IMG/VR virus record: IMGVR_UViG_3300034196_000147
Coordinates: 1 to 47,193 of that record
Length of the DNA stretch: 47,193 bases
Strand: one strand, 5' to 3'
From: a virus
Each line of letters begins with the position of its first letter. The stretch's first letter is position 1. Position numbers and translations under genes: made by a program. Of this stretch, positions 6,966 to 35,717 are shown piece by piece. The notes below the pieces were generated by a model that did no database searches, had not been told where the DNA came from, and worked only from the letters and a program-made list of their open reading frames with translations.

Positions 6966-7017
6966 GCGCCCCTGCTGAACTCAGGGGCGCCTCTCTGTGT
7001 TCAGCCTAGCGCTGAAC
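6966..7017. terminator. Hairpin and GCTGAAC repeats between segregation genes and FtsK-like gene
   Basis: GGCGCCCCTG (6966-6975) pairs with CAGGGGCGCC (6982-6991), a 10-bp GC-rich hairpin. The heptamer GCTGAAC occurs at 6974-6980 and 7011-7017 and inverted at 6999-7005. There is no clear T-tract leftward, so this may be a weak terminator or processing site after parR, or part of a regulatory region for the FtsK-like gene that starts at 6900. Confidence 0.5.
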
Positions 7018-7041: not shown

Positions 7042-7083
7042 GGGTGTATTACACTTTCGCGCCGCGCGCCGGGTGTATTACAC
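7042..7083. repeat. Two GGGTGTATTACAC repeats, candidate centromere or operator
   Basis: Identical 13-mers at 7042-7054 and 7071-7083, 29 bp apart. The second extends to the 15-bp palindrome GGGTGTATTACACCC, with a single central T. They lie immediately downstream of the ParR-like gene (ends 7085) and upstream of the FtsK-like gene. ParR proteins bind short direct repeats (parC) next to their operon, so this is the nearest centromere candidate; an operator for the FtsK-like promoter is the alternative. Confidence 0.5.
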
Positions 7084-7084
7084 C

Positions 7085-7315
7085 CTAGAAGGCGTCGAGC
7101 AGGGCGTCGAGCTCGTCCTCTGTGATGCCCAGCGCGCTGGCCGGGCTCTCCACCTCGCGGGCCTGGCCGGAGAGGTAGGCGGCGGCCCAGCGCAGGATCG
7201 CCGCGCTGCGCCCGCGCTCGCCCACGTCGGATAAGGCGGCCGCCACGATCAGGGCGTCCGGGTTCGCCGGCGAGAGCGAGAGCGGGACGATGGTGCGCCG
7301 GCCCTTGATGAGCAT
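7085..7315 (-). CDS. ParR-like centromere-binding adaptor
   Basis: 76 residues, starting one base after the stop of the actin-like gene. The N-terminal half (RRTIVPLSLSPANPDALIV, then RGRSAAILRWAAAYLSG) has the basic strand followed by two helices expected of a ribbon-helix-helix fold, with the ParR-like feature of a short helix ending in a conserved hydrophobic AAYL. The acidic C-terminal tail (ITEDELDALLDAF) resembles the part of ParR that contacts the end of the ParM filament. Size, position and pattern agree with ParR; the assignment rests on the actin-like neighbour more than on sequence identity. Confidence 0.65.
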   Translation of the reverse strand: MLIKGRRTIVPLSLSPANPDALIVAAALSDVGERGRSAAILRWAAAYLSGQAREVESPASALGITEDELDALLDAF

Positions 7316-7316
7316 C

Positions 7317-8282
7317 TCAGCTCCCCCGCTGGGCCTTGCGGCGGGCGTAGCGCCAGAGGCCGATCGCGATGGCCTGCTGGGGGTTGCTCACCACACGGGC
7401 CGCCTTGAAGGCCCGGCGCAGGTCCTCAGCGACCCAGTGGACGGTGCCGCCGGCGAAGAGGTAGGCCACCGGCTTGAAGCTCGACCAGGAGCGCTGGAGC
7501 TCCCCGACGACGGCCTCACGGTACTGGCGCAGCAGCTGATCGGCCGCGGGATCCTTGCCGGGGGTGCGCACGGCCGCCTCCAGTCGGCGCTCGGCGTCGA
7601 GATACTGCTGGCCGCTCTGCTGCATCAGCGCCTCGACGACCTGGCGCGAGCCGAGCAGGGGGCTGGCCGACTGGCCGGGCAGGGCGCGCAGGCCTTCGAG
7701 CACCGAGCGGTTCAGGGTGGCGCCGCCGATGTCGCCGACGGCCACCAACCCCTTGGCCAGCGCGGCCTGGTCGGTGCGGATCGCGCCGGCGTCGTCGAGC
7801 AGCTCGTAGGAGATCACCGCGTTGGGCTCCGACTGGACGTAGATCTCCTTGATCTCGATCAGGCCCTTCAGGCCGGCGCGCAGGTGGGCGGTGATTGCCG
7901 CCTCGGCCGACTCGTCGCGCCAGGCCACCGGCAGTGCCGTGGCGATCAGCACCGTCGGCTTCCCCTTGGCCAGGCCGGTGTGCTGGGCGCTCATCTGGGC
8001 CAGGGCCTGATACATCGGCGAGTGGGGCTCCAGGCGCCCGTTGGCCATCTGGCGATTGGCCAGGGGCAGGCGCTCGGCCGCGCTGCCGCCGATGTAGCTG
8101 GCGCCGCCGACGGTGGCCACCAGGTCGACGCTCTTGCGGATCAGGCCGGTGTCGTCGCTGCGGGCGAACGGGGCGATCACGGCCGGGTAGGGGCGGAGAT
8201 CCTTGCGCTCGCCGGCGCGGGTGATCGTGTCCTTGACCATACGCTGGCCGGGGTTGTGGCCCCAGCAGATGAGCTCGCTCAT
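7317..8282 (-). CDS. ParM-like actin-family plasmid segregation protein
   Basis: 321 residues, a usual ParM length. Actin-fold nucleotide motifs appear in order: a degenerate phosphate-1 region near the N-terminus (GHNPGQRMVK), TVLIATALPVAW (110-121), the SEPNAVISYELLDD segment (151-164), phosphate-2 AVGDIGGATLN (181-191), and the adenosine motif YLFAGGTVHW (274-283), followed by NPQQAIAIGLWRYA. ParM polymerises with ATP and pushes plasmid copies apart through ParR bound to parC. The ParR-like gene follows with a 1-bp gap. Upstream of the start the plus strand has GTTAGG twice (about 8298-8313), which might be further adaptor sites. Presence in a phage implies stable extrachromosomal inheritance, or positioning of replicating phage DNA in the cell. 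Confidence 0.8.
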   Translation of the reverse strand: MSELICWGHNPGQRMVKDTITRAGERKDLRPYPAVIAPFARSDDTGLIRKSVDLVATVGGASYIGGSAAERLPLANRQMANGRLEPHSPMYQALAQMSAQHTGLAKGKPTVLIATALPVAWRDESAEAAITAHLRAGLKGLIEIKEIYVQSEPNAVISYELLDDAGAIRTDQAALAKGLVAVGDIGGATLNRSVLEGLRALPGQSASPLLGSRQVVEALMQQSGQQYLDAERRLEAAVRTPGKDPAADQLLRQYREAVVGELQRSWSSFKPVAYLFAGGTVHWVAEDLRRAFKAARVVSNPQQAIAIGLWRYARRKAQRGS

Positions 8283-9861: not shown

Positions 9862-10078
9862 CCTCAGAAACCTCCAGTCCGGGCAGCATCTGATTGCCCT
9901 GCCGCTTCAGCAGGGCGTCGGTGGGCGGCGGGCCGACCCAGCCGCAGCCCTTCTTGTCGATGCAGTACAGCCGCGGCCGCTTCTCGCCCCAGAGCCGCAC
10001 CTCCCCGCCGCAGTCGGGACAGGTGCGGGCGATGCGCCGCGCCGGCGGGGGCAGGGCCAGCGGGTGCGAGGGGCTCAT
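9752..10078 (-). CDS. Zinc-ribbon protein
   Basis: 108 residues. ATG at 10076-10078 overlaps the ParB-like stop by one base. A treble-clef or ribbon-like CPDCGG (about residues 20-25) and a CIDKKGCGWVG segment give four cysteines in CxxC...CxxxxxC spacing, similar to topoisomerase-type zinc ribbons that hold DNA. The C-terminal third (DRNPDHPRNAAGSPAPRPQAADAGG) is low-complexity and overlaps the next gene. Probably a nucleic-acid-binding accessory of the ParB-like protein next to it; that link is inferred from position. Confidence 0.6.
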   Translation of the reverse strand: MSPSHPLALPPPARRIARTCPDCGGEVRLWGEKRPRLYCIDKKGCGWVGPPPTDALLKRQGNQMLPGLEVSEDEHLSDRNPDHPRNAAGSPAPRPQAADAGGATEAGG

Positions 10079-12081
10079 CAGTCGGCCGCCTTCGCCCGGG
10101 CGATCACCTGATCGGCCAGGTCGTCGATGCGCACCGTCGCGGCTTCATAGTCGCCGTCGGGGATCGTCTCGTCGCCCACACAGTCGGCAAGGTGGTTGGC
10201 GACGTCGCCGAGCAGAACCTCGTCAAGCGCCTGTGTGCCGCGCTCGAGTGCGTCAATCCAGGCGAGGATCTGAGGGAAGGTAAGCGGCTCGCCGTCGAGC
10301 GGCGCGAGGGTGTGTGCGCGCACACCTGACGCCGGCGCGGTCATAAACTGGGCGTTGTAGGCGGCCTCGTGCTCGGCCGCCCGCTGCGCGTCTTCGGCGG
10401 CGGTGGCCTGTGCGCGTCGCTGGGCGTCGATGCGCGTCATATCAACGGCGGCCTGGGCGCCGGCGATCTCGCCGGCGAGCGCGGCGTGCTCCGGGTGGCC
10501 CTCGGGCAGCCGGCCGAGGAGCTGGCGCGCGTCGCCGAGGAAGCTGTCGGCGATCGGCAGCTCGGCCAGCTCCTGGGCCTCGTCGAGGCGCTGGCGCAGC
10601 AGGGCGATCCGCTCGACCGTCTTGGCCTCCTGCTGCGCCGCCTCCTGGGCCGCCCAAGGAAGCGCGACATCCGCCGCGGCCAGCATCTTCTCCAGCGCTT
10701 GCTTCGCCTTGGGGAGATCGACCCCATAGTCGTAGTGATACTTGATCTCTTCCTTCACCAGGATCACCGCGAGCTCCTGGGCCAGCTGGGCGACCGTTGC
10801 TCCGGCGCCGAGCTTCGCCAGGGCATTGGGGCTGCCCAGCCGCAGCAGCAGGCGCAGCGCCCCGATCGGCGCGGCGGCCAGGGCCGTGGCCAGGGCGGCC
10901 TCGGCAGGAAGCTTGTAGCGCTCCTTGATCTCCTTCTTGTCGGCCTTCTTCTTGGCCGCCTCATTGAGGGCGACGGCGCCCTCGGCCGCCTTCGCCACCG
11001 CGGCGCGACAGACGCAGCGGCCGCCCTCGCCGTGGGCGCAGACGATCCCGCAGTTGGGGTGCTCGGCCACCGTGTGGGGGAGCCAGGTCCGCTCGATGTA
11101 GACCACGCCCAGCTTGCCGCAGGCGCGCCGCTTGGCCTCGGCCCGCAGCGCCGGCAGCGGGACACTGTTCAGGCTGTCATAGTCGCGGTAGCTGGCGACG
11201 GCCACCGCCGGCAGCTTGGCCTTCTCGGCCGCGGGCGCTGCCTTCTCGCGCAGGATCACCGCGCGCTTATCGCCGGCGCAGGTAGCATCGGGACAGCGGT
11301 TCGTGCTCTTCAGGCGCAGCGGGCACTCTTTGCAGCTCGCCGCGCGCACGCTGGCCAGGGCGATCTCCCGCTTGGCGAACTCCTCTTTGTCCAGGTCGAT
11401 CGTGAGCTTGTTGAGCACCTCGCCCACGCGCTCGCGCAGCCGATCGGCCGGCCAGCTCGGCGCCAGCGTAACCAGGTGCTCTAGCGAGACAACTGACTGC
11501 TGGCCCGTCCAGATGTTGAAGCGCTCGTCCCAGGCCGTAGCGGGGAGCTCGGCCAGGGGGCGCAGGGCCATCGCCTGGCGCTCCGAGAGCTCGCCGCGCT
11601 CCAGCAGTGTGAGCGCCTGTTGCGGGAGCCGCAACAGTGACAGCTTGTTCGTGACCGTCGTGCGGTCGAGCTGGAGGCGCTCGGCCGCGGCCTTGTGCGA
11701 CCAGCCGAAGGCCGTGGTGTAGGTCTCGATCGCCTTCGCCTCCTCGTAGGCGGTGAGGTCGCTGCGGTCTCGGTTCTCAGTCCAGGCGTGCAGGGCCATG
11801 GTCTCATCGTCGAGGGCGCGCACGACCAGGGGCATGACGCGCCAGCCGTCGCCGGGCTGGTTCGTGGCCAGCGCGCGATAGGCCCGCAGGCGCGAGTGAC
11901 CAAAGGCCAGCTGGTAGCGCGCGCCGGTGGGGCGGGCGATCGGCACCTGCAGCAGGCCGTGCTCGGCGATGCTGGCGGCGATCGCTGCGATGCGCTCGGC
12001 ATCGTAGACCAGCCGCGGCTGAAAGGGGTTGTCATCGACCAGGTCGAGCGGGATCAGCACGGGTGTGGGCGTGTCAGTCAC
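10078..12081 (-). CDS. Large ParB-like DNA-binding protein
   Basis: 667 residues, about twice the usual ParB. The N-terminal ParB/Srx-like domain has DNPFQPR (17-23), the nucleotide-pocket segment FGHSRLRAYR (60-69, in place of the usual GERRxxA) and TENRDRSDLTAYEEAKAI (101-118). A helix-turn-helix follows (GWSHKAAAERLQLDRTTVTNKLSLL, 126-150). Then come two cysteine groups (C250, C253, C263, C268; C344, C348, C356, C358) that could hold zinc, and a long helical C-terminal region. In partition systems ParB binds parS and spreads with CTP; in phages and plasmids KorB-like relatives repress transcription. Copy 2 of the dispersed palindrome lies inside this gene. GTG start overlaps the upstream stop region. 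Confidence 0.75.
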   Translation of the reverse strand: MTDTPTPVLIPLDLVDDNPFQPRLVYDAERIAAIAASIAEHGLLQVPIARPTGARYQLAFGHSRLRAYRALATNQPGDGWRVMPLVVRALDDETMALHAWTENRDRSDLTAYEEAKAIETYTTAFGWSHKAAAERLQLDRTTVTNKLSLLRLPQQALTLLERGELSERQAMALRPLAELPATAWDERFNIWTGQQSVVSLEHLVTLAPSWPADRLRERVGEVLNKLTIDLDKEEFAKREIALASVRAASCKECPLRLKSTNRCPDATCAGDKRAVILREKAAPAAEKAKLPAVAVASYRDYDSLNSVPLPALRAEAKRRACGKLGVVYIERTWLPHTVAEHPNCGIVCAHGEGGRCVCRAAVAKAAEGAVALNEAAKKKADKKEIKERYKLPAEAALATALAAAPIGALRLLLRLGSPNALAKLGAGATVAQLAQELAVILVKEEIKYHYDYGVDLPKAKQALEKMLAAADVALPWAAQEAAQQEAKTVERIALLRQRLDEAQELAELPIADSFLGDARQLLGRLPEGHPEHAALAGEIAGAQAAVDMTRIDAQRRAQATAAEDAQRAAEHEAAYNAQFMTAPASGVRAHTLAPLDGEPLTFPQILAWIDALERGTQALDEVLLGDVANHLADCVGDETIPDGDYEAATVRIDDLADQVIARAKAAD
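10312..10325. repeat. Dispersed palindrome GTGTGCGCGCACAC, copy 2 of 7
   Basis: Exact copy inside the ParB-like gene, where it encodes part of the segment GVRAHT near residue 587. Being inside a coding region argues that the site is kept for its DNA sequence, or was inserted as a unit into a tolerant linker. Confidence 0.9.
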
Positions 12082-15188: not shown

Positions 15189-15237
15189 GGGAACTGGGGC
15201 AACGCCCCGGCGGGCGGTTGCGGCCACCGCCGGGGCG
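15189..15237 (+). promoter_or_regulatory. Leader hairpin upstream of the integrase
   Basis: GGGAACTGGGGCA (15189-15201) is identical to 23849-23861 in the lysis leader. An 11-bp stem follows, CGCCCCGGCGG (15203-15213) with CCGCCGGGGCG (15227-15237), then CTT. This lies between the divergent membrane protein gene and the integrase. A clear -10 is not visible, so control by attenuation is only a possibility. Confidence 0.45.
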
Positions 15238-15328
15238 CTTGGCGCCTATGGGCGCGTCGATCTGCGGATACCATGAAATTCCCGAGGCCCTTTACACCGC
15301 GTACGGGGCAGCGGACCAGGGAGTTTCC

Positions 15329-16276
15329 GTGGATAAATTCATTGTGGCGTTCGTAGACGGGTGTGCGGACACGTGCCAGGCCAACACGCGGGCGACCTAC
15401 CGGGCGTATCTGTCGCACTACGCCGCGTGGCTGCGGGAGTCCGGCCACGCCGACGGCTTTGCGCCAGCGACGCTGCGCGCCTACCTGGCTAGCCGGCGTA
15501 GCGACAGCAACGCGACGCTGCGCAACCGGGCGCGCTACCTGCGCCTGTTCTGTGCCTGGCTCGTGGATCGCGGCGACCTGGCGCAGAGCCCCTTTGCGGG
15601 CCGCGATCGGGTGAAGGCGCCCGCCAAGAAGCGGGCCAGGCGGGCGGTGTGGAGTGAGGCCGAGGTGGTGGCGCTCCTGAGGGCGACGGCGCCGACCCAG
15701 TGGAAGAAGGGGGAGCGCAAGACCACGCGCCAGCAGTGGCAGCCCGATGGGCCGATGGCCCGCGAGGCGCTTCAGGGGCGGGCGCTCGTGCTGCTGCTGG
15801 TGGACTCGGCCCTGCGGGCGGCCGAGGCCTGCGCGCTGAGCTGCGGGCAGGTGCGCGGGGCGCGGCTGCTGATCCGCAGCAAGGGCGGACATTTCGACGC
15901 CGCCTTCGTCTCGGCGACGACGCGGGCCGTGCTGCGCGAGCTGGCCGGCGAGCGGCCAGACCTCGATCCGCTGTTTCGGGACTTTAACAACCGGCGCTGC
16001 TCGACGGCGGGGCTGCGCGGGATAGTGCAGCGCCTGGCGCTGCGGGCAGGCGTGCCGCTGCCCCCGCGGCCGGTGCACGCCTTCCGGCACTACGCGGCCC
16101 GTCAGTGGCTCAAGGCCGGGGTGCCGGACCTGACGATCCGCCAGCTCATGCGCCACGAGAGTCTGGCGACGACCCAGATCTATACCGAGCTCGACGATGA
16201 GGAGTTGGCGGAGCTGCACGCGGACGCAAGCTCGATCGATCAGCTCATGGCGCGGGCGGGCCTGAAGGCCGCATAA
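15329..16276 (+). CDS. int: Tyrosine integrase
   Basis: 315 residues from GTG 15329, chosen for AGGGAG five bases upstream; ATG 15248 in the same frame lies within or just after the hairpin and has no ribosome site. An N-terminal SAM-like core-binding domain (about 1-95, TRATYRAYLSHYAAWL, TLRNRARYLRLFCAWLVDRG) is followed by the catalytic domain with R163 (ALRAAEACAL), K185 (IRSKGGH), H250-x-x-R253 (HAFRH), H276 (LMRHESLATTQ) and the nucleophile Y285 (IYTEL). These enzymes join attP to attB. The tRNA-Val fragment immediately downstream is the expected attP position for an integrase of this type. Confidence 0.9.
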   Translation: MDKFIVAFVDGCADTCQANTRATYRAYLSHYAAWLRESGHADGFAPATLRAYLASRRSDSNATLRNRARYLRLFCAWLVDRGDLAQSPFAGRDRVKAPAKKRARRAVWSEAEVVALLRATAPTQWKKGERKTTRQQWQPDGPMAREALQGRALVLLLVDSALRAAEACALSCGQVRGARLLIRSKGGHFDAAFVSATTRAVLRELAGERPDLDPLFRDFNNRRCSTAGLRGIVQRLALRAGVPLPPRPVHAFRHYAARQWLKAGVPDLTIRQLMRHESLATTQIYTELDDEELAELHADASSIDQLMARAGLKAA

Positions 16277-17149: not shown

Positions 17150-17206
17150 AACAAGAGGGGTCTTCAGGCAGGCTTAAGCCGCTGCTGCCTGAAGACCCCT
17201 CTTGTT
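17150..17206. terminator. 22-bp perfect hairpin at the end of the repressor gene
   Basis: Arms 17150-17171 and 17185-17206 are exact reverse complements over 22 bp with a 13-nt loop. The repressor stop codon (17174-17176) lies in the loop and its last codons are in one arm. In the leftward direction the arm ends in TTGTT followed by TGTGGTT, a moderate U-rich end; rightward it is followed by ATTT. Probably a bidirectional terminator after the repressor. Confidence 0.75.
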
Positions 17207-20632: not shown

Positions 20633-22291
20633 ATGCCATCACAACTACCCAACACGCTCTACTACGGTGACAACCTCGATATTCTGCGCCAGTACATCGC
20701 CGACGCCTCGGTCGACCTGGTCTACCTCGACCCTCCCTTCAACTCCAATCGTAACTACAACGTGCTCTTTAAGGATGAGAAGGGCGTCGATAGCGAGGCC
20801 CAGATCACCGCGTTCGAGGATACCTGGCACTGGAACCAGGCGGCTGAGGTGACCTATCGCGATCTGGCGATCGGGAGCCCCATCGGCGAGCTGATGGGCG
20901 CCATCCTCACGCTCACCGGGCGCGGCCAGATGGGCGCCTACCTGGTGATGATGGCGGCGCGGCTGGTCGAGTTGCACCGCGTGCTGAAGCCGACGGGCAG
21001 CCTGTACCTGCACTGCGACCCCACCGCCAGCCACTACCTGAAAATCATCCTCGACGGCATTTTCAACCCTCGTTTCTTTCGGAATGAGGTGATATGGCAG
21101 CGTACATCTGCCCATAATGACCCATCACGCTACGGGCGTATTCACGATGTACTGCTGTTCTATACCAAGAGTGACACCTTTACGTGGAACCCGCAGTACA
21201 CCACTCCTGATGAGAAGTTTTTCAGCGCACACGATTTCGAGAAAGACGACCAAGGGAAGCTCTATCGAAAACGTGATCTGACCGCCCCCTCACATGCAGG
21301 TGGCAGCTCCGGTCAATACGATTGGAAGGGCAAACGCCCACCGACAGGGCGTATGTGGAGCTATGTTCAGGACAAAATGGAGCAGCTCGAAGCTGACGGC
21401 AGAATTGTGTACACCAAGACGGGGATGCCCCGATTAAAGATATACCTCGAAGACTTAAAGGGGACGCCCCTGCAGGATGTATGGGCTGACCCCGATCTCT
21501 GGCTCAACTCAGCCGCTAAAGAGCGCCTGGGCTACCCCACACAGAAGCCGCTGGCCCTCCTAGAGCACATCATTAATACGAGCTCGAACCCCGGCGATGT
21601 GGTCCTTGACCCCTTCTGCGGCTGCGGGACGGCGGTGGCCGCCGCCCAGAAGCTCGGCCGGCGCTGGGTGGGTATCGATATCACGCACCTCGCCATTGCG
21701 CTTCAGAAATATCGCATGGAGCAGATGTATCCCGGCATGACCGTCCAGGTCATCGGCGACCCCAAGGATATCGGCGCCGCGCACCAACTCGCCAACGACG
21801 GCCGTTACCAGTTCCAGTGGTGGGCCTTGTCGTTAGTGCGGGCGCGACCCGTCGGCGGCGATGCGGGCAGCAAGGTGGGCAAGAAGGGCAGCGACAAGGG
21901 GATCGACGGGGTGATCAACTTCGTGGATGACGCCGGCGGCAAGCCGAAGCGCACGTTAGTACAGGTGAAGTCGGGCAAGGTGAAGTCGGGCGACATCCGC
22001 GACCTGGTCGGCACGGTGCAGCGCGAGGGCGCGCAGCTCGGCGTCTTCATCACCCTGGAGGAGCCCAGCCGCGATATGCGAACAGAGGCGACCAGCGCAG
22101 GCTTCTACGAATCGCCGGGCTGGGGGAAGCGCTACCCGAAGGTCCAGATCCTCACCATCGCCGAGCTGCTGCGCGGGGTCGATGTGCAGATGCCGCCGCC
22201 CTTCGGGACGTTCAAGGCGGCCCAGCGGGTGAAGGGCGATCCCGAAGCCGAGCAGCGGGAGCTTGATCTCACTGAAGCCTCCGCTGCGTGA
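20633..22291 (+). CDS. Adenine DNA methyltransferase fused to Mrr-type endonuclease
   Basis: 552 residues. Motif IV DPPF at 33-36 comes before the SAM-binding motif I DPFCGCGT at 326-333, the beta-class order, with the target-recognition region between (about 140-290). GYPTQKPLALLEHI (300-313) is typical of these enzymes. The C-terminal domain has DKGIDGVINF (421-430) and QVKSG (444-448), the PD-(D/E)xK pattern of Mrr-like nucleases, then GVFIT. It would add N6-methyladenine and might cut DNA of different methylation state, so it could protect phage DNA from host restriction or attack competitors. DNA encoding the middle (about 21060-21530) is visibly more AT-rich than both ends, suggesting an exchanged recognition domain. 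Confidence 0.85.
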   Translation: MPSQLPNTLYYGDNLDILRQYIADASVDLVYLDPPFNSNRNYNVLFKDEKGVDSEAQITAFEDTWHWNQAAEVTYRDLAIGSPIGELMGAILTLTGRGQMGAYLVMMAARLVELHRVLKPTGSLYLHCDPTASHYLKIILDGIFNPRFFRNEVIWQRTSAHNDPSRYGRIHDVLLFYTKSDTFTWNPQYTTPDEKFFSAHDFEKDDQGKLYRKRDLTAPSHAGGSSGQYDWKGKRPPTGRMWSYVQDKMEQLEADGRIVYTKTGMPRLKIYLEDLKGTPLQDVWADPDLWLNSAAKERLGYPTQKPLALLEHIINTSSNPGDVVLDPFCGCGTAVAAAQKLGRRWVGIDITHLAIALQKYRMEQMYPGMTVQVIGDPKDIGAAHQLANDGRYQFQWWALSLVRARPVGGDAGSKVGKKGSDKGIDGVINFVDDAGGKPKRTLVQVKSGKVKSGDIRDLVGTVQREGAQLGVFITLEEPSRDMRTEATSAGFYESPGWGKRYPKVQILTIAELLRGVDVQMPPPFGTFKAAQRVKGDPEAEQRELDLTEASAA

Positions 22292-22305
22292 CCCCTTGAC
22301 CCCCG

Positions 22306-22362
22306 TGCTACCATAGCCCTGTGTTCGCCCTTCACGGCCCCCGCGATTGTCGCGGGGGCCGT
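22306..22362 (+). promoter_or_regulatory. Promoter-like box and leader hairpin upstream of second recombinase
   Basis: TGC-TACCAT at 22306-22314 resembles the extended -10 boxes found elsewhere in this genome. A 12-bp perfect hairpin follows (22334-22345 with 22351-22362, 5-nt loop). No T-tract follows. It could be a terminator for the methyltransferase gene or a structured leader for the recombinase. Confidence 0.45.
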
Positions 22363-22386
22363 GGCGATCTTCCCCGGAGCCCCGCC

Positions 22387-23424
22387 ATGCCCACGCTGCG
22401 CGACGCCCTCGCGCGCCGAATTGCCCAGCGCCCCGAGCTGCTCGACGGAACCCCCGCCGAGCGCGCCCTAATACGGCCGGAGACGCCTGCCGATCGGGTC
22501 GAGACATGCGAGAATGGACATTCTGGGCAGTCTCGCGGCGCCGGCCCGGCGGCGGTCTACCTGGCCCGCCTGGCGCCGGGATCTCGGCCGACGATGCGCG
22601 CCGCCCTGACGACCTGCGCGCGCCTCCTCGGCCACGCCGATCCCCACACCTGCCCCTGGCACCAACTGACCTACGTCCACACCGCGGCCCTGCGCGCCCA
22701 GCTGGCCAGCAGCCTGGCGCCGGCGACGGCCAATAAGATCCTGGCCGCCCTGCGCGGCGTGCTGCTCGAGTCGCGCCGCCTCGGCCTGATGGGCGCCGAT
22801 GCCTGCGCGGCCGCGCGCGACGTAGCCCCGGTGCGTGGCCGGCGCCTGCCCGCCGGCCGGGCCCTGGCCGCCCAGGAGCTCGCCGCCGTGCTGCGCACCT
22901 GCGCGGCCGACGGCGGGCCGCGCGGCCGGCGCGACGCCGCGCTGATCGCGGTCGGCTACGGGGCCGGGCTGCGTCGGGCCGAGCTCGTCGCCCTGGCCCT
23001 GGCCGACTATGACCGGGGCGAGCGGACGCTGCGCGTGCGGCGCGGCAAGGGCAATGCCGAGCGGGTGGCCTACCTGGGCGCCGACTGGGCGCGCCTGCTC
23101 GATGTATGGTTGGCCGTGCGCGGCCGGCGGGCCGGGCCGCTCTTCCTGGCAACCACGCGCACCGGGCGGATCCTGGCCCGCGGCCTGGCCGCCTCGACGG
23201 TGCGCGAGATCTGCCTGGCCCGCGGCGACGCGGCCGGCGTGGCCCGCTTCAGCCCCCACGATCTGCGCCGCACCATGATCGGCGACCTGCTCGACGATGG
23301 GGAGGACCTGGCCACGGTGCAGGCCACCGTCGGCCACGCCAACATTGCCACCACTGCCCGCTACGACCGGCGCGGCGAGCGGGCGAAGCGGCGCGCTGCC
23401 GAGCGCCTGCGCCTGGCCGAGTAG
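22387..23424 (+). CDS. Second tyrosine recombinase (XerD-like)
   Basis: 345 residues from ATG 22387, with GGAG upstream. The N-terminal core-binding domain spans about 55-145 (MRAALTTCARLLGHADPHTC, LAPATANKILAALRGVLLESRRLGL). The catalytic set is R197 (GLRRAELVAL), K221 (RGKGNAERVAYL), H291-x-x-R294 (SPHDLRRTMI), H317 (VGHANIATTARYDRRG) and Y326. It is quite different from the integrase at 15329. The C-terminus has the GHxxxxTTxxYdrrG pattern of site-specific recombinases on mobile elements. Possible roles are resolving genome multimers, fitting the partition genes, or an alternative integration route. Confidence 0.85.
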   Translation: MPTLRDALARRIAQRPELLDGTPAERALIRPETPADRVETCENGHSGQSRGAGPAAVYLARLAPGSRPTMRAALTTCARLLGHADPHTCPWHQLTYVHTAALRAQLASSLAPATANKILAALRGVLLESRRLGLMGADACAAARDVAPVRGRRLPAGRALAAQELAAVLRTCAADGGPRGRRDAALIAVGYGAGLRRAELVALALADYDRGERTLRVRRGKGNAERVAYLGADWARLLDVWLAVRGRRAGPLFLATTRTGRILARGLAASTVREICLARGDAAGVARFSPHDLRRTMIGDLLDDGEDLATVQATVGHANIATTARYDRRGERAKRRAAERLRLAE

Positions 23425-23426
23425 CG

Positions 23427-23446
23427 GAGGTGTGCGCGCACACCTC
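23427..23446. repeat. Dispersed palindrome, copy 4 of 7, extended to 20 bp
   Basis: Here the 14-mer (23430-23443) is extended to the perfect palindrome GAGGTGTGCGCGCACACCTC. It starts just after the recombinase stop and ends one base before the -35 box of a good promoter (23447). Confidence 0.9.
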
Positions 23447-23476
23447 TTGACCGACGCCGCACGGCCGTGCTATATT
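23447..23476 (+). promoter_or_regulatory. Sigma70-type promoter abutting the palindrome
   Basis: TTGACC (23447-23452), 18 bp, TATATT (23471-23476), with TGC directly before the -10. The 20-bp palindrome lies immediately upstream of the -35, a position from which a bound protein could either activate or repress. It would drive the small frame at 23507. Confidence 0.7.
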
Positions 23477-23506
23477 TGTGGCGGCTGGGGACGCCGAGGG
23501 TCAGCG

Positions 23507-23602
23507 ATGGCCCACGCGGAAGAGAAGCCCGGCCACCAATACCCATTAGGGGCGGGCAGCTCGTACGGGAGCAAACGGAAGGGTGCCCAGTTGGGCTGCT
23601 GA
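23507..23602 (+). CDS. Putative 31-residue micro-protein
   Basis: ATG at 23507 has GAGGG six bases upstream and lies about 25 nt after the expected transcription start of the preceding promoter. The peptide begins MAHAEEKPGHQYPLG and ends SKRKGAQLGC; it is hydrophilic, basic at the end, with a C-terminal cysteine. It is the only translatable frame with its own promoter and ribosome site in the 515-bp gap between the second recombinase and the endolysin. It could be a small regulator, an anti-host peptide, or a leader. Confidence 0.45.
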   Translation: MAHAEEKPGHQYPLGAGSSYGSKRKGAQLGC

Positions 23603-23686
23603 GAACGCCGGCCCGCCCCGCGCACTGCACCGACCGCACGTTGCCAGGGTGACATGATCGGCGCCAGGCGCCTTGACCTGTAGCAA

Positions 23687-23705
23687 TCTGGATCACGTGA
23701 CCAGA
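23687..23705. repeat. Palindrome TCTGGATCACGTGACCAGA
   Basis: 19-bp palindrome with one central imbalance, in the non-coding space downstream of the second recombinase. An imperfect inverted repeat follows nearby (GACATAGGC then GCCTACGTC, about 23715-23740). Either could be the site used by the second recombinase or an operator for the lysis promoter. Confidence 0.45.
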
Positions 23706-23752
23706 CCCCTCGACGACATAGGCGCCCAGTTGCCTACGTCATAGCCCGGGCC

Positions 23753-23777
23753 AGCCCCCGCCGCAACGCGGGGGCTT
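23753..23777 (+). terminator. Intrinsic terminator before the lysis promoter
   Basis: AGCCCCCG (23753-23760) pairs with CGGGGGCT (23769-23776) and is followed by TT. It would end transcription coming from the recombinase and micro-protein region and insulate the lysis promoter. Confidence 0.65.
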
Positions 23778-23833
23778 TGCTATGCCCGGTCGTTGACAGT
23801 TTGCTCAGGTTCTTCCCCTCGTTCGCACCCCTG

Positions 23834-23914
23834 TGCTATACTCAGATCGGGAACTGGGGCACGCGGGAAGCGTAGAACCTCCAGTTCCCATTTGGTTTTT
23901 GCACCGCGTGCCCC
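23834..23914 (+). promoter_or_regulatory. Late (lysis) promoter with immediate terminator, pR'-tR'-like
   Basis: Extended -10 TGC-TATACT (23834-23842) with no matching -35. The expected start near 23849 is the first base of GGGAACTGG (23849-23857), which pairs with CCAGTTCCC (23881-23889), followed by ATTTGGTTTTT: an intrinsic terminator about 50 nt into the transcript. A second stem, GGGGCACGCGG (23856-23866) with CCGCGTGCCCC (23904-23914), is interleaved with the first in A-B-A-B order, so it could form a pseudoknot or an exclusive alternative fold. The lysin ATG is at 23940. This matches the lambda late promoter layout, where an antiterminator is needed. Confidence 0.65.
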
Positions 23915-23939
23915 AGGCCCTCACCACCCTGGAGGCGCC

Positions 23940-24656
23940 ATGGCCACGGCCGACTATACCTTCCTCTCCCCCGCCCGGATCTCTCTTGAGCAGTTCACCC
24001 GCGTCCTCACTCGCATGCGCTCGCCGGCCCGCGCCGTGGCCGCGGCGTGCTATGCGCTCCTCACGCGCCGCGGCTTTGACCCCGGCCTGACCCTCGGCTT
24101 TTACCTCCACGAGAGCAGATGCGGCACGCGCGGGAGCGCGGTCTACACGCTCAACTGGGGGAATATTCGCATCCCCACGCGCCGCGCCGCGCCGTGGGGA
24201 CGGGCGCTGAACCCAAAGGCCAAGGGCAGCCTGGCCAAGTACGCCAGTTGGACCGACGGCCTGGAGGCCTGGTGCGACCTGATGAGCGAGGTCTACGTCC
24301 CCAGCGGCCGCGCGTCGCTGGCCACGGCGATCCCGAGCTACGCCCCGGCCGGGCCGCCCGACTTCAACCAGCCCCAGATCTACATCGCCCAGGTGCGCAC
24401 GGCCCTGGAGAGCTGGATCGCCGAGGATCAGGTAATGGCCGGCACGCGCATGCTGGTGATCGGCGACGGCACGCGGGTGCGGAATGATCACAGCCTCGAC
24501 GGGCGGATCCTGCTGAAGCTGTCGGCGGGCTCGGCGGTGGTGGTCGACCAGGTCGTCGACGGCACGGGCCTCGACGCAGCCCCGATGCAGTGGGCGCGCA
24601 TCGTCAGCCCGATCGAGGGCTACGTCGCTCTCTACCTGCTGCGGGCGGTGGCGTAG
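23940..24656 (+). CDS. Endolysin: lysozyme-like domain plus SH3-type binding domain
   Basis: 238 residues from ATG 23940 with GGAGG upstream. The N-terminal ~165 residues look like a glucosaminidase or lysozyme-superfamily domain: LTLGFYLHESRCGT holds a probable catalytic Glu in LHES, then YTLNWGNIRIP (the NxxGNI motif of glucosaminidase-type enzymes), SWTDGLEAWCDLMSEVYVP, and ATAIPSYAPAGPPDFNQPQIYIAQVRTALESW. The C-terminal ~70 residues form a bacterial SH3-like domain (GTRMLVIGDGTRVRNDHSLDGRILLKLSAGS, then WARIVSPIEGYVALYLL), a usual cell-wall anchor. It lacks a signal peptide, so a holin should release it. First gene of the late operon. Confidence 0.8.
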   Translation: MATADYTFLSPARISLEQFTRVLTRMRSPARAVAAACYALLTRRGFDPGLTLGFYLHESRCGTRGSAVYTLNWGNIRIPTRRAAPWGRALNPKAKGSLAKYASWTDGLEAWCDLMSEVYVPSGRASLATAIPSYAPAGPPDFNQPQIYIAQVRTALESWIAEDQVMAGTRMLVIGDGTRVRNDHSLDGRILLKLSAGSAVVVDQVVDGTGLDAAPMQWARIVSPIEGYVALYLLRAVA

Positions 24657-24766
24657 TGGGCGCCGTCGGCTGGCTCTGCCTGGCGGGGCTGGGGCTGCTC
24701 GGCCCAGGGCTGGCCATCGCCTGGCTGCTCGGCCGGCTGCGCGGGCCACGTCGGGAGGGCGAGTAG
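24656..24766 (+). CDS. Tiny membrane protein, holin candidate
   Basis: 36 residues. GTG overlaps the lysin stop by one base (TAGTG) and the stop is followed directly by the next ATG. One hydrophobic segment (AVGWLCLAGLGLLGPGLAIAWLLG) and a basic C-terminus (RLRGPRREGE), the pattern of a minimal single-span holin or antiholin. Position right after the lysin supports this. Confidence 0.55.
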   Translation: MGAVGWLCLAGLGLLGPGLAIAWLLGRLRGPRREGE

Positions 24767-25096
24767 ATGAGCGAGCCATTGCGCACCGACTACTACGGTT
24801 TGGCCGTCGCCGCCGCGCTCGACGGCGATAACATCGCGCTCCAGGTGGCCCGCGACGCCGCCGCGCTGCGCCTGGCCGCCAACCCCGCCGCCCCGCCGCT
24901 GGCCCGCGTCCTGGCCAACGTGGCGGCGGCCACGCTTCAGCCCGCCGAGGCCGAGCTGATGATCGCCAGCGACCCCTCCCTGACGCAGGCCGTCGTCGCG
25001 CTGGAGTCGGCCCAGATCGGCGAGCTGAGCATCGGCCAGATCGCGGGCCGCGACATCATCACGATCAACGTGTACGCCGGGACGGCCACGCTATGA
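24767..25096 (+). CDS. Small hypothetical protein with GRDI motif
   Basis: 109 residues. Helical, alanine-rich first two thirds (YYGLAVAAALDGDNIALQVARDAAALRLAANPAAPPLARVLANVAAATLQPAEAELM), then a strand-rich end (IGELSIGQIAGRDIITINVYAG). I associate the IxQIAGRDIITINVY pattern with short tags in multi-domain effector proteins of Chloroflexota and Cyanobacteria. Overlaps the next gene by 4 bp. A role in lysis control is possible from position. Confidence 0.55.
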   Translation: MSEPLRTDYYGLAVAAALDGDNIALQVARDAAALRLAANPAAPPLARVLANVAAATLQPAEAELMIASDPSLTQAVVALESAQIGELSIGQIAGRDIITINVYAGTATL

Positions 25097-25527
25097 CCAA
25101 CGGGCAGCAGCCGGCCGCCGCCTGGGATCTGGCCCTCGAAGGCATCACGAAGCTTGCGACGCAGCTTGAGGCGTTGCAGGCGACGACGACCGAGATGCAG
25201 GCGCAAATCTCCTACATCCGCCAGAGCGCCGCCCCGATCTCGATGATGCGCGCCCAGGAGAACGACATCAGCGACCTGTCCAAGGCGCTGGCCGCGCTCG
25301 ACACGCGGGTCGTCTCCGTCGAGCAGGGCGCGACAGCGGCGATCTTAGAGCGCCTGGCCAGCGACGCCGAGCTGCGCGGCGCCTACGAGGCGGCCGACCA
25401 GGAGGATCGGCACGAGCGGCGCAAGGCCAACGACCGGCGCGATCTGCTACTCTTCCTCGGCTTCCTGGCCGTGGTGGTGGCGATCTTGTTTCTCGCCTAT
25501 GTGATCTGGGGGGCGGTGCGCCGATGA
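25093..25527 (+). CDS. Coiled-coil protein with C-terminal membrane anchor (XhlA-like)
   Basis: 144 residues. A long helical, coiled-coil-like part (EGITKLATQLEALQATTTEMQAQISYI; DISDLSKALAALDTRVVSVEQGATAAILERLASDAELRGAYEAADQEDRHERRKANDRRD) leads to one membrane segment (LLLFLGFLAVVVAILFLAYVIWG). XhlA-type accessory holins share this design. It lies in the lysis cluster and overlaps the genes on both sides by 4 bp. A spanin-like tether is the alternative. Confidence 0.6.
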   Translation: MTNGQQPAAAWDLALEGITKLATQLEALQATTTEMQAQISYIRQSAAPISMMRAQENDISDLSKALAALDTRVVSVEQGATAAILERLASDAELRGAYEAADQEDRHERRKANDRRDLLLFLGFLAVVVAILFLAYVIWGAVRR

Positions 25528-25913
25528 TCAACGCGCTGACCGACTACGACGCGACCATTGCCGCGCTCATCGCCCACGACGAGGCGCTCGACCCGACGCG
25601 GGCCGCCCTGTTGCGCGAGATGTTCACGGCGCAGCGGCTGTTTTTTCACAACCTCGGCCAGGCCATGAGCGACAACAGCGCGGCGGTGACGAGCCTCGCC
25701 GAGCGGGTGCAGGGCCACATCAGCGGCCAGCTGCTCGACGTGATGGCCGCCCAGCAGGAGAGCTCGCGTCAGCACGCGATCATCTTGAAGCGCCTGGGCG
25801 CCCAGGACGCCATGCTCCAGGCGACGCACGAGCGCATGATCGAGATCGCCCGCCTGCTGCGCTCGCGCGAGGCGGTCGACCCGCGCGAGCGCGAGGCCGA
25901 TCGCTACGAGTGA
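25524..25913 (+). CDS. Helical hypothetical protein in lysis cluster
   Basis: 129 residues, all-helical by pattern (ATIAALIAHDEALDPTRAALLREMF; VTSLAERVQGHISGQLLDVMAAQQESSRQHAIILKRLG; MLQATHERMIEIARLLRSREAVD). Overlaps the membrane-anchored coiled-coil gene by 4 bp and may bind it. No family recognised. Confidence 0.6.
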   Translation: MINALTDYDATIAALIAHDEALDPTRAALLREMFTAQRLFFHNLGQAMSDNSAAVTSLAERVQGHISGQLLDVMAAQQESSRQHAIILKRLGAQDAMLQATHERMIEIARLLRSREAVDPREREADRYE

Positions 25914-25925
25914 GGGAGAGGGGCT

Positions 25926-26174
25926 ATGCGACGTTTCCTGATCAGACTGTTGGCACCGCAGATCAACGACCTCATCGATGAGGCGATCATGTACTGGATC
26001 GAGAGCGGCAAGCTCACCATGGTCATGGCCGCCCAGTCGGAGCACCTGCGCACGGCCCTGCGCCGCGCGCTCGATGACATCCTGATCGAGGAGCACGCGG
26101 CCACCATGTCCGCGGCCGTCGCGACGGGTGTCGACCCGCTCATCGAGAGCGATCTGCCCATCCAACCATCCTAA
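25926..26174 (+). CDS. Small helical hypothetical protein
   Basis: 82 residues, with GGGAGAGG before the ATG. N-terminal RRFLIRLLAPQINDLIDEAIMYWIESG, then helical acidic sequence ending in DPLIESDLPIQPS. It separates the lysis cluster from the packaging genes. No family recognised. Confidence 0.6.
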   Translation: MRRFLIRLLAPQINDLIDEAIMYWIESGKLTMVMAAQSEHLRTALRRALDDILIEEHAATMSAAVATGVDPLIESDLPIQPS

Positions 26175-26202: not shown

Positions 26203-26682
26203 ATGACCGGACGCGCACGCACAGAACGCACACCCCAACGCATGCGCGAGCTCTTCCTCAAGGAGCTGGCGCGGCGCGGCAATGTCAGCGACGCCGCCCG
26301 CAAGGCCGGCGCGGGACGGCGCACCGTCTACCAGTGGCGCGAGGCCGAGGAAGGATTTGCCGCAGCCTGGGACGAGGCGCTCGAGGTGGCCATCGACCGC
26401 CTGGAGAGCGAGGCCTGGCGCCGCGCGGTCGAGGGCGTGAAGAAGCCGATCATCGGCCGGGTGGGCAAAGACGAGGACGGCATTCTTACCGATGACAAGG
26501 GGCGGCCCCTCTACCTCCAGGAGTACTCAGACTCGCTGATGAACACCCTGCTCAAAGCCCACCGGCCCGAGAAGTACCGCGAGCGCTCGGAGGTCAAGCA
26601 CACCGGCCTGACGATCGAGCAGGCCGCGGCCCTGAGCGACGACGAGCTCGACGCCAAGCTGAAGGAGCGCGGCCTGCTGTGA
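26203..26682 (+). CDS. terS: Terminase small subunit
   Basis: 159 residues. The N-terminal helix-turn-helix (MRELFLKELARRGNVSDAARKAGAGRRTVYQWREAEEGFAAAWDEALE) is the classic small-terminase pattern for binding the packaging site. The rest is helical (AIDRLESEAWRRAVEGVKKPI; YSDSLMNTLLKAHRPEKYRER, very common in small terminases). Followed directly by the large subunit, with overlapping stop and start codons. It would select phage DNA and load the motor. Confidence 0.88.
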   Translation: MTGRARTERTPQRMRELFLKELARRGNVSDAARKAGAGRRTVYQWREAEEGFAAAWDEALEVAIDRLESEAWRRAVEGVKKPIIGRVGKDEDGILTDDKGRPLYLQEYSDSLMNTLLKAHRPEKYRERSEVKHTGLTIEQAAALSDDELDAKLKERGLL

Positions 26683-28076
26683 TGACCGGCCTCACCACTA
26701 ACGACCTGGTCCTGCTGCGCGAGCGCCGCAAGCGCCGGGCGGGCTACGCCGCGGGCGTGGCCGAGTTTGTGGCGCGCACGAAGATCGAGGTGCCCCACGA
26801 TGTGGGCGCCTCGGTCGTGCCGTTCGCGCCCTGGCCGGCCCAGCTCGACGCCCTGCAGGCCATGCTGCGCGAGCGCCTGATCGTCTTCCTGAAGGCCCGC
26901 CAGCTGGGCATCTCCTGGATCACCTGCGCCTTCGCCCTGCACCAGGCGATCAGCCACGAAGGGCAGACCTGGCTCTTCTTCAGCCAGGGCCAGGACGAGG
27001 CCGACGAGCTGATCCGCCGGACCCAGTTCCTGCACGACCAGCACGAGGACCGCGCGCGCTTCCCGGTCCAGGTCAAAGACAACACCGAGGAGCTCGTCTG
27101 GTCCAACCGCTCGCGCATCCTCAGCCGGGCGGCCACCAAGCGGGCCGGGCGCAGCTTCACCGGCTCCGGCGTCGTGCTCGATGAGTTTGCCTTTATGCTC
27201 TACGGCCCGCAGGTGCTCGCCGCGGTCAAGCCCACGATCGACGCCGGCGGCAAGCTCTTCATCATCTCCTCGGCCGACGGCGCCGGCTCGGGCTACCATC
27301 GCATCTGGCAGACCGCCGAGGGCGGCGCCTCGGGATTCACGCCCTACTTCATCCCGTGGACGGCGCATCCCGGCCGCGACGCGGGCTGGCGCGACCGTAT
27401 CCTTGAGGAGAGCCCGGAGCTCACGCGGGCCGACGTGCTGCGCGAGTACCCGGCCACGCCACTGGAGGCTTTCACGTTTGCCACCGGCCTGATCTACGGC
27501 GACGTCTGGGCGGACCTGCCCGCCGGCGACAGCGTGCGCGAGGCGGCCGAGTATGTGGCCGGGCTGCCCCTGATCTGGGCCGTTGACGATGGCTATGTGG
27601 GCAGCATCGACCCGACGACGCGCACCTACACGGCCAGCAGCCACCCGCGGGTCTTCCTGCTGATTCAGGAGCACCCCGACGGGCAGATCTGCGTGGTCGC
27701 CGAGCACTACGCCGTCGGCGTGCTCGAAGGCACGCACATCGCCACGGTGCTGGCCCTGCCCTACCCCGCCCCCGATCACGCCGTCGTCGATAAGTCGGCC
27801 GCCGCCCTGAAGGGCCACCTGCACGCCGCCGGCGTGGGCACGATCTCGCGCGCCCCCGGCGTCGAGGAGAGCATCAAGGTGCTGCGCGGCATGCTGGCCA
27901 AGGACACGGGCGGCCGGCGGCGCATCCTCATACACCCGCGCTGCCATCACCTGCGCGCCGAGCTGAGCCTGTACCGGCGCGACGCCACCGGCGGGGTGGT
28001 GAAGGCCTTCGACCACGGGCCGGACGCCCTGCGCTACTACGCCTGGACCAAGCGACACGAGGCCGCCAATGACTGA
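26682..28076 (+). CDS. terL: Terminase large subunit
   Basis: 464 residues from ATG 26682 (GTG 26679 is also in frame). ATPase domain: LKARQLGISW (about 70-79) is the large-terminase Walker A variant, VVLDEFAFM (about 164-172) is Walker B, and ISSADGAGSG (about 195-204) the coupling motif. Nuclease domain in the C-terminal half: VDDGYVGSIDP, DHAVVDKSAAAL and DHGPDALRYY supply the metal-binding Asp residues of the RNase H-like fold. It pumps DNA into the head and cuts it. The stop overlaps the portal gene by 8 bp. Confidence 0.92.
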   Translation: MTGLTTNDLVLLRERRKRRAGYAAGVAEFVARTKIEVPHDVGASVVPFAPWPAQLDALQAMLRERLIVFLKARQLGISWITCAFALHQAISHEGQTWLFFSQGQDEADELIRRTQFLHDQHEDRARFPVQVKDNTEELVWSNRSRILSRAATKRAGRSFTGSGVVLDEFAFMLYGPQVLAAVKPTIDAGGKLFIISSADGAGSGYHRIWQTAEGGASGFTPYFIPWTAHPGRDAGWRDRILEESPELTRADVLREYPATPLEAFTFATGLIYGDVWADLPAGDSVREAAEYVAGLPLIWAVDDGYVGSIDPTTRTYTASSHPRVFLLIQEHPDGQICVVAEHYAVGVLEGTHIATVLALPYPAPDHAVVDKSAAALKGHLHAAGVGTISRAPGVEESIKVLRGMLAKDTGGRRRILIHPRCHHLRAELSLYRRDATGGVVKAFDHGPDALRYYAWTKRHEAAND

Positions 28077-33410: not shown

Positions 33411-33506
33411 TGCTATACTCGTGCTAATTGATCATTCGTTCGCCTATCCCGCGGCCACACCGCGGCGCCGGCGTCACGCTCTTCACCGAGCGGGCGCCGG
33501 CTTTTT
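33411..33506 (+). promoter_or_regulatory. Capsid-operon promoter with immediate terminator
   Basis: Extended -10 TGC-TATACT (33411-33419); no clear -35. About 30 nt past the expected start there is CCGCGG twice (33449-33454, 33460-33465). A stem follows, GCCGGCG (33467-33473) with CGCCGGC (33495-33501) plus an inner GCTC/GAGC, and then TTTTT (33502-33506): a true intrinsic terminator. The next ATG is at 33516, only 10 bp on. Same layout as the lysis leader at 23834. Confidence 0.65.
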
Positions 33507-33515
33507 GCGTCTCCT

Positions 33516-35717
33516 ATGCCAATTCGTAGCAAGCGCCAGTGGGGGTTCCTGTTCGCGACGGGCAAGCCGTTCGCGCGGCGCTGGGCGCGTGAAACGCCCG
33601 GCGGCACGGGGGCGCGCTTCCGCAACCTGCCCACGAAGGTAGCGAAAAAGGAGGCGGCCACCGCCCCGCTCGCCGTGCCGGCCCACGGCCCCGGCGGGCT
33701 GCTGAGCACGCCCGGCCTGGGCGGCACGCCGCGCCACCGGCGTTGGGGCAAGCGCCTGAAGGCCACGCGCATCGTCGGCAACCTCTTCCGTTCCAACACG
33801 GGGCAGTTCTCTTCGGGGGGCGACGACAGCACGCCGGCAAAGAAGCCCACGAAGGCGCCCAAGAAAAACGACGCGCCCGCCGCGGCCGACGCAAGCGCCC
33901 CGGCCGCGGCGCCGCCGAAGCAGACGGCCGCCCAGCGCGCGGCCACCGCCGCGGCCCGCCGCGAGCGCAGCGCGGCCGAGCAGGCCACGCGCGACGAGGA
34001 GTCCACGACCGAGCAGGCCGCCCGCGACGGCGAAGACGCCCAACTGGCCGGGGCGAAGACGCCCAAGGAGCGCCAGGCCCTGCGCCAGCAGATCGCCACC
34101 GCGCGCCGCGCGCGGGCCGCCGAGCTGCGCAAAGCCCGTCGTGAGCGATCCACGGCCGAGCGGGCGGCTCGATCTGCGGAGGACGCCGCCCCCGGCACGG
34201 CCGCCGCCGCCAAGCCCGAGAAGCCCAAGAAGGGCGGCGGCGGGGGCGGCAAGGGGCCGAAAGCCCCCAAGCCCGAAGACCCGGCCAAGGCCGCAGCCGC
34301 CGCCACGCGCGAGCAGGAGCGGGCCGCCCGCGCCGCCGAGACGGCCAAGCGCCGGGCGGCCACGGACCAGCGCATTGCGGCCACCGAGCAGCGCCGCCAG
34401 CAGGCCGACGCCCAGCGCAGCGAGACCCAGCAGCGCCAGCTCACCGACCTGACCCAGCGCGCGGCCAGCGGCACAAGCAAGCTGAGCGATAGCGAGTGGC
34501 AACACCTGATCGTCAGCGGCATGGCCGAGCGTCGGCCGACAGGCCTCTTCCTCACCCCGGCCGGCCAGCAGCAGACCACGCGCCAGCCCCAACAGGTCAA
34601 GGCCAGCGCCGGCGCCGGCGCGTTCCAGGTCTTCAAGGCCTCCCACGGCCAGTACCGATGGATCAGCATCAGCTCCTCGGCCTTCGAGGATCGCGACGAG
34701 GAGATCGTCTGTAAGGCCGCCCTAGCCAGCGACTGCGACCGCGCCGACGCCGACGGCGACTACGGCCCGCTGCGCTGGTGGCACCTGCCCGGCGTCGACA
34801 TTGGCGACTGCGACTTCAACGCGATGAGCGGGCGCTGCCTGATCGAGATGGGCACCTTCCGCTCTGCGGCCGTCGCCCGCGCGGCGCAGCAGGCCGCGCC
34901 AGACCTGGAGCTGAGCCTGGGCTTTAAGCACTACCCCGACGAGCCCGTCGGCGGAGTGTTCTCGTATATCCGCCGCTTCGAGCGGTCGCTGGTTCCCCGC
35001 GGCCGCGTGTCGAATCTGCTGACCTCGTTTGCCGTTGCGCACAAGGAGCCCCGTATGGACCCCGCAAAGCTGAAGACTGCCCTGGAGAAGTTGGGCACGA
35101 GCCCGGAGGCCCGCGCGGTGATGGAGACGATCATCGCCGAGGCCCAGACCCGCGAGAAGGCCGCCGATGAGGCGGGCCTGGCCTTCAAGGACGCGCCGCC
35201 CTGGGCGCAGGCCCTGATCGGCCGCATCGACGCCCTCGAGGAGGCATTCAAGGCGCCGATGGACGCCCTGGAGATGCTCGACGCCGGCACGACTGAGGCC
35301 GCCGACGGCGAGGCCGACATGGCCGACGGCGAGGGCGACGACGCCGACGCCGGCTACGCGATCGGCGACATGACCCGCGACGAGTTCAAGGCCCTGATGG
35401 GCGAGGTGCTCAACGAGCTGGGCGGCAAGCTCTCGACGATGGACGCCGAGCTGAAGGCCATGGGCTACGAGCGGCGCATGAAGGCCCACGAGGCCGGCCT
35501 GGCCGCGATCGGCAAACAGGTCGAGGCCATCCTCACCACGGTCAAGGAACTAAACGGCGACGCGCCAGCCGGCCGCCACACCGGCCACAAGGCCAGCGAG
35601 GATAACGACGACCTGCCCGCCGAGCTCGCCGAGCTCTTCAAGGACGACGGCGACGACCTGGACCTGTCCCCGCTCGGCCAGGTAGCTGCCTTCCTGACCC
35701 GGCCCGTCACGGCCTAA
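33516..35717 (+). CDS. Capsid maturation protease fused to scaffold
   Basis: 733 residues; no clear ribosome site, since the terminator hairpin ends just before the ATG. Residues 1-100 are basic, with VPAHGPGGLLSTPGLG (54-69), a motif also present in the capsid protein. About 105-330 is Ala/Arg/Lys coiled coil. About 370-520 resembles an XkdF or HK97-type prohead protease (WISISSSAFEDRDEEIVCKAALASDCDRADADGDYGPLRWWHLPGVDIGDCDFNAMSGRCLIEMGTF, then SLGFKHYPDEPVGGVFSYIRRFERSLVPRG). The end is an acidic coiled coil of scaffold type (MDPAKLKTALEKLG...). Protease-scaffold fusion before the major capsid gene is a known arrangement; catalytic residues cannot be fixed by eye. Confidence 0.7.
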   Translation: MPIRSKRQWGFLFATGKPFARRWARETPGGTGARFRNLPTKVAKKEAATAPLAVPAHGPGGLLSTPGLGGTPRHRRWGKRLKATRIVGNLFRSNTGQFSSGGDDSTPAKKPTKAPKKNDAPAAADASAPAAAPPKQTAAQRAATAAARRERSAAEQATRDEESTTEQAARDGEDAQLAGAKTPKERQALRQQIATARRARAAELRKARRERSTAERAARSAEDAAPGTAAAAKPEKPKKGGGGGGKGPKAPKPEDPAKAAAAATREQERAARAAETAKRRAATDQRIAATEQRRQQADAQRSETQQRQLTDLTQRAASGTSKLSDSEWQHLIVSGMAERRPTGLFLTPAGQQQTTRQPQQVKASAGAGAFQVFKASHGQYRWISISSSAFEDRDEEIVCKAALASDCDRADADGDYGPLRWWHLPGVDIGDCDFNAMSGRCLIEMGTFRSAAVARAAQQAAPDLELSLGFKHYPDEPVGGVFSYIRRFERSLVPRGRVSNLLTSFAVAHKEPRMDPAKLKTALEKLGTSPEARAVMETIIAEAQTREKAADEAGLAFKDAPPWAQALIGRIDALEEAFKAPMDALEMLDAGTTEAADGEADMADGEGDDADAGYAIGDMTRDEFKALMGEVLNELGGKLSTMDAELKAMGYERRMKAHEAGLAAIGKQVEAILTTVKELNGDAPAGRHTGHKASEDNDDLPAELAELFKDDGDDLDLSPLGQVAAFLTRPVTA

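Follow-up and report, generated by a model that had tools for sequence, protein, structure and literature searches.

We analysed a 47,193-base stretch of DNA from an uncultured phage (IMG/VR virus record IMGVR_UViG_3300034196_000147), hereafter the window, which has a GC content of 70% over its whole length. A Chloroflexota host is suggested, tentatively, by TerL alone, which weakly matches MAG contigs from that phylum; relatives of the phage come from uncultured material, partly assigned to Chloroflexota, and neither the DNA nor the lysin found a match among GenBank phages. Near the middle of the window, a gene for a lysin-like protein heads a run that continues with a very short ORF containing a hydrophobic stretch, a gene whose 144-aa product has a hydrophobic helix at its C terminus, and then the terminase genes; the ~20 kb downstream of these lysis and terminase genes hold genes that lie mostly on the forward strand. 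The leader at 23849 is supported as the head of this lysis/packaging operon. We infer that the product of 23940–24656 is a lysin from its HES and NWGN motifs, from partial profile matches of its C-terminal part to amidase-looking ORFs in relatives, and from its position. The protein gave no convincing family match in Pfam, PHROG or PDB, the best solved structure being a phage cell wall hydrolase at an E-value of only 0.86, and its AlphaFold model (mean pLDDT 48) was too poor for a structure search. Homologs are present in the related genomes L002, L028 and L059. The features of the leader and its operon are:

23834–23842, + strand: extended −10 element TGCTATACT (TATACT at 23837–23842, TG just upstream)
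23849–23859, + strand: stem A 5′ arm GGGAACTGGGG, including the predicted start G23849 (core 23849–23857)
23854–23866, + strand: stem B 5′ arm CTGGGGCACGCGG, overlapping the 5′ arm of A
23870–23902, + strand: inner extension of B by thermodynamic prediction (GCG/UGC plus AGAACC 23874–23879 / GGUUUU 23894–23899)
23879–23889, + strand: stem A 3′ arm (A′) CTCCAGTTCCC
23890–23900, + strand: U-rich tract ATTTGGTTTTT past stem A, predicted intrinsic termination site, missing in L002
23904–23916, + strand: stem B 3′ arm (B′) CCGCGTGCCCCAG
23916–23939, + strand: possible hairpin GGCCCTC/GAGGCGCC over the ribosome binding site GGAGG (23931–23935)
23940–24656, + strand: lysin-like protein, 238 aa, first gene of the operon, with HES and NWGN motifs
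26203–28076, + strand: terminase small and large subunits, same operon as the lysin-like gene

Several other elements were seen in the window. It encodes two distinct tyrosine recombinases (integrases; 15218–16276 and 22321–23424), one of them directly upstream of the late promoter. Repeated palindromes (GTGTATTACAC / GGGTGTATTACACCC, 7045–7085) adjoin parA-like (7317–8282) and parB-like (10078–12081) genes. They are probably parS centromere sites, which suggests that the prophage state is plasmid-like despite the two encoded recombinases. Between neighbouring genes at 17151–17205, a near-perfect 20–21-bp hairpin bordered at either end by T-rich sequence is a probable bidirectional terminator. 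Just past the integrase gene, a promoter-like TTGACC-18-TATATT (23447–23476) faces ~280 noncoding bases that end in a GC-rich hairpin plus TTTGCTAT (23754–23775), and may make a separate RNA of ~300 nt; folded as a structured RNA, 23482–23790 was no more stable than its shuffles and had no match in Rfam.

The leader is preceded by an extended −10 element for which there is no −35 box at normal spacing, and the pattern TG.TATACT occurs at two sites only in the window, 23834 and 33411. Seven bases past TATACT lies G23849, the predicted transcription start, which is also the first base of stem A. The stem core pairs GGGAACTGG (23849–23857) with CCAGTTCCC (23881–23889) in nine perfect pairs, or eleven with one G-U, and is followed by ATTTGGTTTTTG, the T5 run beginning 6 nt past the stem. 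Judged by its letters, this U-rich tail would be usable but not ideal as a terminator tail; a simple terminator scanner did not report the stem A terminator, and Rfam 15 covariance models run over 22000–26000 gave no credible match, even at E-values up to 5. The predicted terminated RNA of ~50–52 nt has a folding energy of −24.6 kcal/mol (z −4.2). Default termination at stem A in the window's phage is moderately supported as a prediction. A first-pass annotation of this DNA had described a promoter running straight into a terminator, a transcript that opens with the terminator's own first arm, and a resulting 50-nt RNA; our analysis finds the arrangement present and predicts the same start and very nearly the same product.

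Interleaved with stem A is a second stem, B, whose arms (23854–23866 / 23904–23916) are complementary at 13 of 13 positions. The order A-B-A′-B′ given in the first-pass annotation holds, whereas its 11 bp and its end at 23914 give way to 13 pairs reaching 23916. The two 5′ arms have 23854–23857 in common (to 23859 with the extended A), an overlap of 4–6 nt, so the stems compete. This order and the mutual exclusion of the stems recall H-type pseudoknots and attenuator leaders. Unlike in an H-type pseudoknot, the overlapping 5′ arms (about 6 nt in L002) do not allow both stems to form fully together, so the pseudoknot proposed earlier is not available in its full form, although a shortened A of about 5–7 pairs could coexist with B. 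According to the folding model, the inner extension of B would bury the U tract once B forms, leaving A′ in the loop of B.

The relative L002 (IMGVR_UViG_3300019360_000027), found via TerL (58% identical; lysin 33%), carries an equivalent leader. Its lysin homolog is preceded by an extended TATACT (TGGTATACT), and the leader has a stem A of 13 pairs and a stem B of 16 pairs in the order A-B-A′-B′, ending at position 68. The two phages have the same 68-nt layout at an equal distance from TATACT and upstream of a homologous lysin, while an alignment of their leader letters scores 10, no higher than the mean of 10.2 obtained with shuffled sequence. This agreement is one of architecture and not of column-wise covariation, as stem lengths differ. 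After stem A, L002 has ATTCCATGCA in place of the U tract; A therefore cannot terminate transcription in that phage, and what the element conserves is something other than termination at A. Just after B′, inspection revealed a start-site hairpin (GGCTACCTCG/CGAGGTTGCC) similar to that in the window. Relatives keeping one stem only had been named in advance as evidence against a paired element; L002, the sole testable relative, keeps both stems in unrelated letters. Testable leaders are those of the window and L002: the L028 contig has lost its leader, beginning only with the start codon of the lysin, and L059 is uninformative, with its lysin inside an operon and not its first gene. Profile searches with the lysin and neighbouring genes returned L028, L059 and the distant L060–L062, and a DNA pattern of bases common to both leaders (TATACT..GAAGCG..TGCAC) gave L002 and chance hits among the matches listed.

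When the window leader was dinucleotide-shuffled, none of 3000 sequences yielded two interleaved stems equally strong with A near the 5′ end, and A and B each exceeded all 3000 shuffles. Equally strong interleaved stems occur at ~8 places in the window, this leader included (both strands, mostly inside genes), and by structure alone the coincidence of interleaved stems comes to about 1 in 1000 per position. By itself, the window's structure is suggestive, not conclusive. The L002 leader likewise outperformed its shuffles (0/3000 matched its two interleaved stems). Because the same pairing recurs independently in L002, at the same place and in different letters, the A/B paired structure, with both stems known from two phages only, is very likely maintained by selection and likely functional.

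Other identities for the element were considered and set aside. An HDV-like ribozyme, whose P1/P2 would also fit the order A-B-A′-B′, would have its P1 beginning at the transcription start; by inspection the leader has no P3/P1.1 and no matching J4/2, and Rfam returned nothing. The L002 element has no adjacent integrase, as an integrase attachment site would; the arms are 23 and 37 nt apart, too far for the usual dimer sites of a DNA operator; and the minus strand has no T run with which to form a terminator.

Folding of the growing transcript gave A alone until about +64, with B appearing at about +70, both in the window and in L002. For the full leader, B is more stable in the window (−50.6 versus −47.9 kcal/mol), whereas in L002 A plus the start-site hairpin is more stable (−55.8 versus −50.3 kcal/mol), because this hairpin competes with B there; the final fold is therefore not conserved. 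The U tract is transcribed at +42 to +52 and B′ only at +56 to +68, so that B cannot prevent termination in cis and forms only on read-through transcripts. This timing speaks against the earlier suggestion that B switches the transcript between termination and read-through, and sets the leader apart from an attenuator, since its second stem comes after the terminator. The role of B is the weak point of the scheme proposed below, and the interleaved stem is its most interesting, unexplained part.

A promoter followed closely by a terminator is also found elsewhere in the window:

33411–33419, + strand: second TGCTATACT promoter
33463–33506, + strand: second promoter-proximal terminator, a hairpin (33463–33499) followed by GCTTTTT

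ORF 33516–35717, a probable structural gene, has its start codon 17 nt beyond this terminator; the 33411 leader lacks the interleaved-stem element. L002 has a counterpart of the promoter-terminator pair (L002:9417), and terminator-like hairpins precede the homologs of this ORF in L005, L006, L009 and L013, yet L006 and L009 show no clear promoter there. Among 21 distinct TG[CG]TATACT sites counted in the TerL family, a strong terminator lies within 93 nt downstream at six and within the same distance upstream at none, against a genome-wide background of 1.6% per position; L013:12006 is, by eye, a seventh promoter with a downstream terminator. In L013, L014 and L034 the terminator stands between the promoter and lysis/packaging genes, and the lysis promoters of L005, L007/L009 and the L021 group have no leader terminator. 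Promoters before the ORF 33516 homolog in L021, L023–L027 and L029 have TTGACA near the TATACT boxes and no leader terminator, an arrangement that contrasts with the window group. Two further leaders were observed in passing. The only other TATACT in the window, a third (6915–7005), also precedes interleaved stems, GGCGCCCCTG/CAGGGGCGCC, where the loop CTGAAC pairs with a downstream GTTCAG in a small pseudoknot order. At L011:5035–5110, a GIY-YIG-like ORF is preceded by a promoter (TGGTATAAT) and then GCCCCGGCGGTGTCTCACCACCCCGG, which makes a compact hairpin leader.

The likeness to lambda pR′-tR′ drawn in the first-pass annotation is borne out, in that a promoter-proximal terminator heads a lysis/packaging operon. 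In the lambdoid pR′-6S-tR′ regions with Q (lambda, phage 21), too, a late promoter and a proximal intrinsic terminator precede lysis/head genes and give a short default RNA. The present leader differs in that stem A starts at +1 and the RNA is about 50 nt, in the presence of at least two such promoters per phage, and in the interleaved second stem. Its working would be like that of pR′-tR′, and membership of the Q system is no more than a possibility. Q needs an element between −35 and −10 plus a −10-like pause sequence (PMC6606751). The sequences upstream of 23834 and 33411 have no common block of at least six bases at like spacing, a comparison that a degenerate site would escape, and the first 18 transcribed bases, GGGAACTGGGGCACGCGG, show on inspection no TANNNT-like hexamer or A/T-rich match; no common loading site for antitermination was recognised at these promoters. 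Also in agreement with the earlier reading, which saw no obvious Q-like protein, Pfam/PHROGs scans of most predicted genes found neither Q nor another antitermination family, though such scans would miss AlpA-like non-homologous factors. The published accounts report no sequence homology to Q for AlpA of Pseudomonas aeruginosa (PMC7969949), and none to such factors for GafZ of the Caulobacter gene transfer agent (PMC11150451), so the missing Q homolog is weak evidence and an unrecognised factor is plausible here. In both systems, lysis or structural genes lie behind leader or downstream terminators that a promoter-loaded factor passes (PMC7969949, PMC11150451); leader RNA structures of the A/B kind are not described in the portions of these accounts drawn on here, and no AlpA or GafZ homolog was recognised here.

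The reading we favour, at a probability of about 0.45 and thus tentatively, is that of a terminated late promoter of the pR′-tR′ kind with a putative antitermination step and, once that is passed, a refolding of the leader in which B takes the place of A. RNA polymerase would start at ~23849 from the extended −10 promoter, and the first 41 nt would fold immediately as hairpin A, which together with the U tract would end most transcripts at ~50 nt. As the promoter-then-terminator arrangement also occurs at 33411, the late genes are probably switched on by polymerase ignoring leader terminators, in the fashion of Q or AlpA, through a putative factor; the recurrence suggests that this step would be common to the 23849 and 33411 leaders. 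On read-through, the new B′ arm is predicted to open A from its apical side, refolding the leader into the longer B, which in L002 would be favoured only transiently. The termination decision at ~+50 precedes B′, so B would work only on escaped transcripts, where its probable effects are to take A out of the message, to cap the 5′ end and to set the openness of the lysin start site.

The stems might instead form a message-stability or translation device of the lysin leader, in which a 5′ hairpin protects the message, A, B and the start-site hairpins set lysin output, and termination at A is incidental. Retention of A and B without a U tract in L002 fits this explanation, as do the possible ribosome-binding-site hairpin just past B′ in both leaders and the position immediately ahead of a lysis gene, for which a tight dosage is important. 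It leaves the promoter-then-terminator arrangements at 33411, at L002:9417 and in L013, L014 and L034 unexplained, and the start-site hairpin competes with B in L002 only; we regard it as a possible but less likely account. Classical attenuation, with B as the antiterminator of A and a signal choosing between them, would make sense of the way B ties up A's 5′ arm together with the U tract, but B′ lies downstream of that tract and is synthesised too late, and L002 has no terminator to control, making this very improbable; it would require B′ of another RNA to pair in trans. Equally little credence is due to chance: at 70% GC, interleaved inverted repeats could arise at random, and these stem strengths are equalled at about seven further places in the window, but chance would hardly produce the exact start-site placement in two phages with unrelated leader letters.

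Two further explanations assign the work to the RNA itself. The 68-nt RNA could be a cis-acting antiterminator that modifies polymerase in the style of HK022 put, directed at later terminators such as that at 33463. HK022 putL is about 70 nt and lies just downstream of PL, and put RNA consists of two consecutive stem-loops (PMC9378689). The present leader, likewise a structured RNA of ~70 nt directly after a phage promoter, resembles putL in size and extreme 5′ position (PMC9378689), and a Q-like protein was not recognised. However, put acts in early operons with its stem-loops in succession, whereas here the operon is late and the stems interleave and exclude each other; moreover, the fold does not lie upstream of its own terminator, the letters are not conserved between the window and L002, unlike a polymerase-binding surface, and the 33411 leader has no such element. 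We therefore find a put-like role improbable. An RNA-only late-gene device without a Q protein, consisting of a structure-conserved, sequence-independent 5′ leader in which A is replaced by B after read-through, is unlikely; the part assigned to B, marking or shielding escaped transcripts or acting on polymerase, seems similarly doubtful, as does the alternative action, in which the terminated 50-nt RNA would work in trans on B′ of other leaders.

Late-gene control in this phage group appears to have had no earlier study. Taken from its sequence, the leader at 23849 would be a new variant of late-operon leader that recalls pR′-tR′. If the favoured reading is true, at least two late promoters per phage would be held off by leader terminators and released jointly by a putative antitermination system, and this joint release would make a new example of a regulatory logic that is rare. 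To this the interleaved stem would add a refolding of the leader once transcription escapes, a defined and testable RNA rearrangement.
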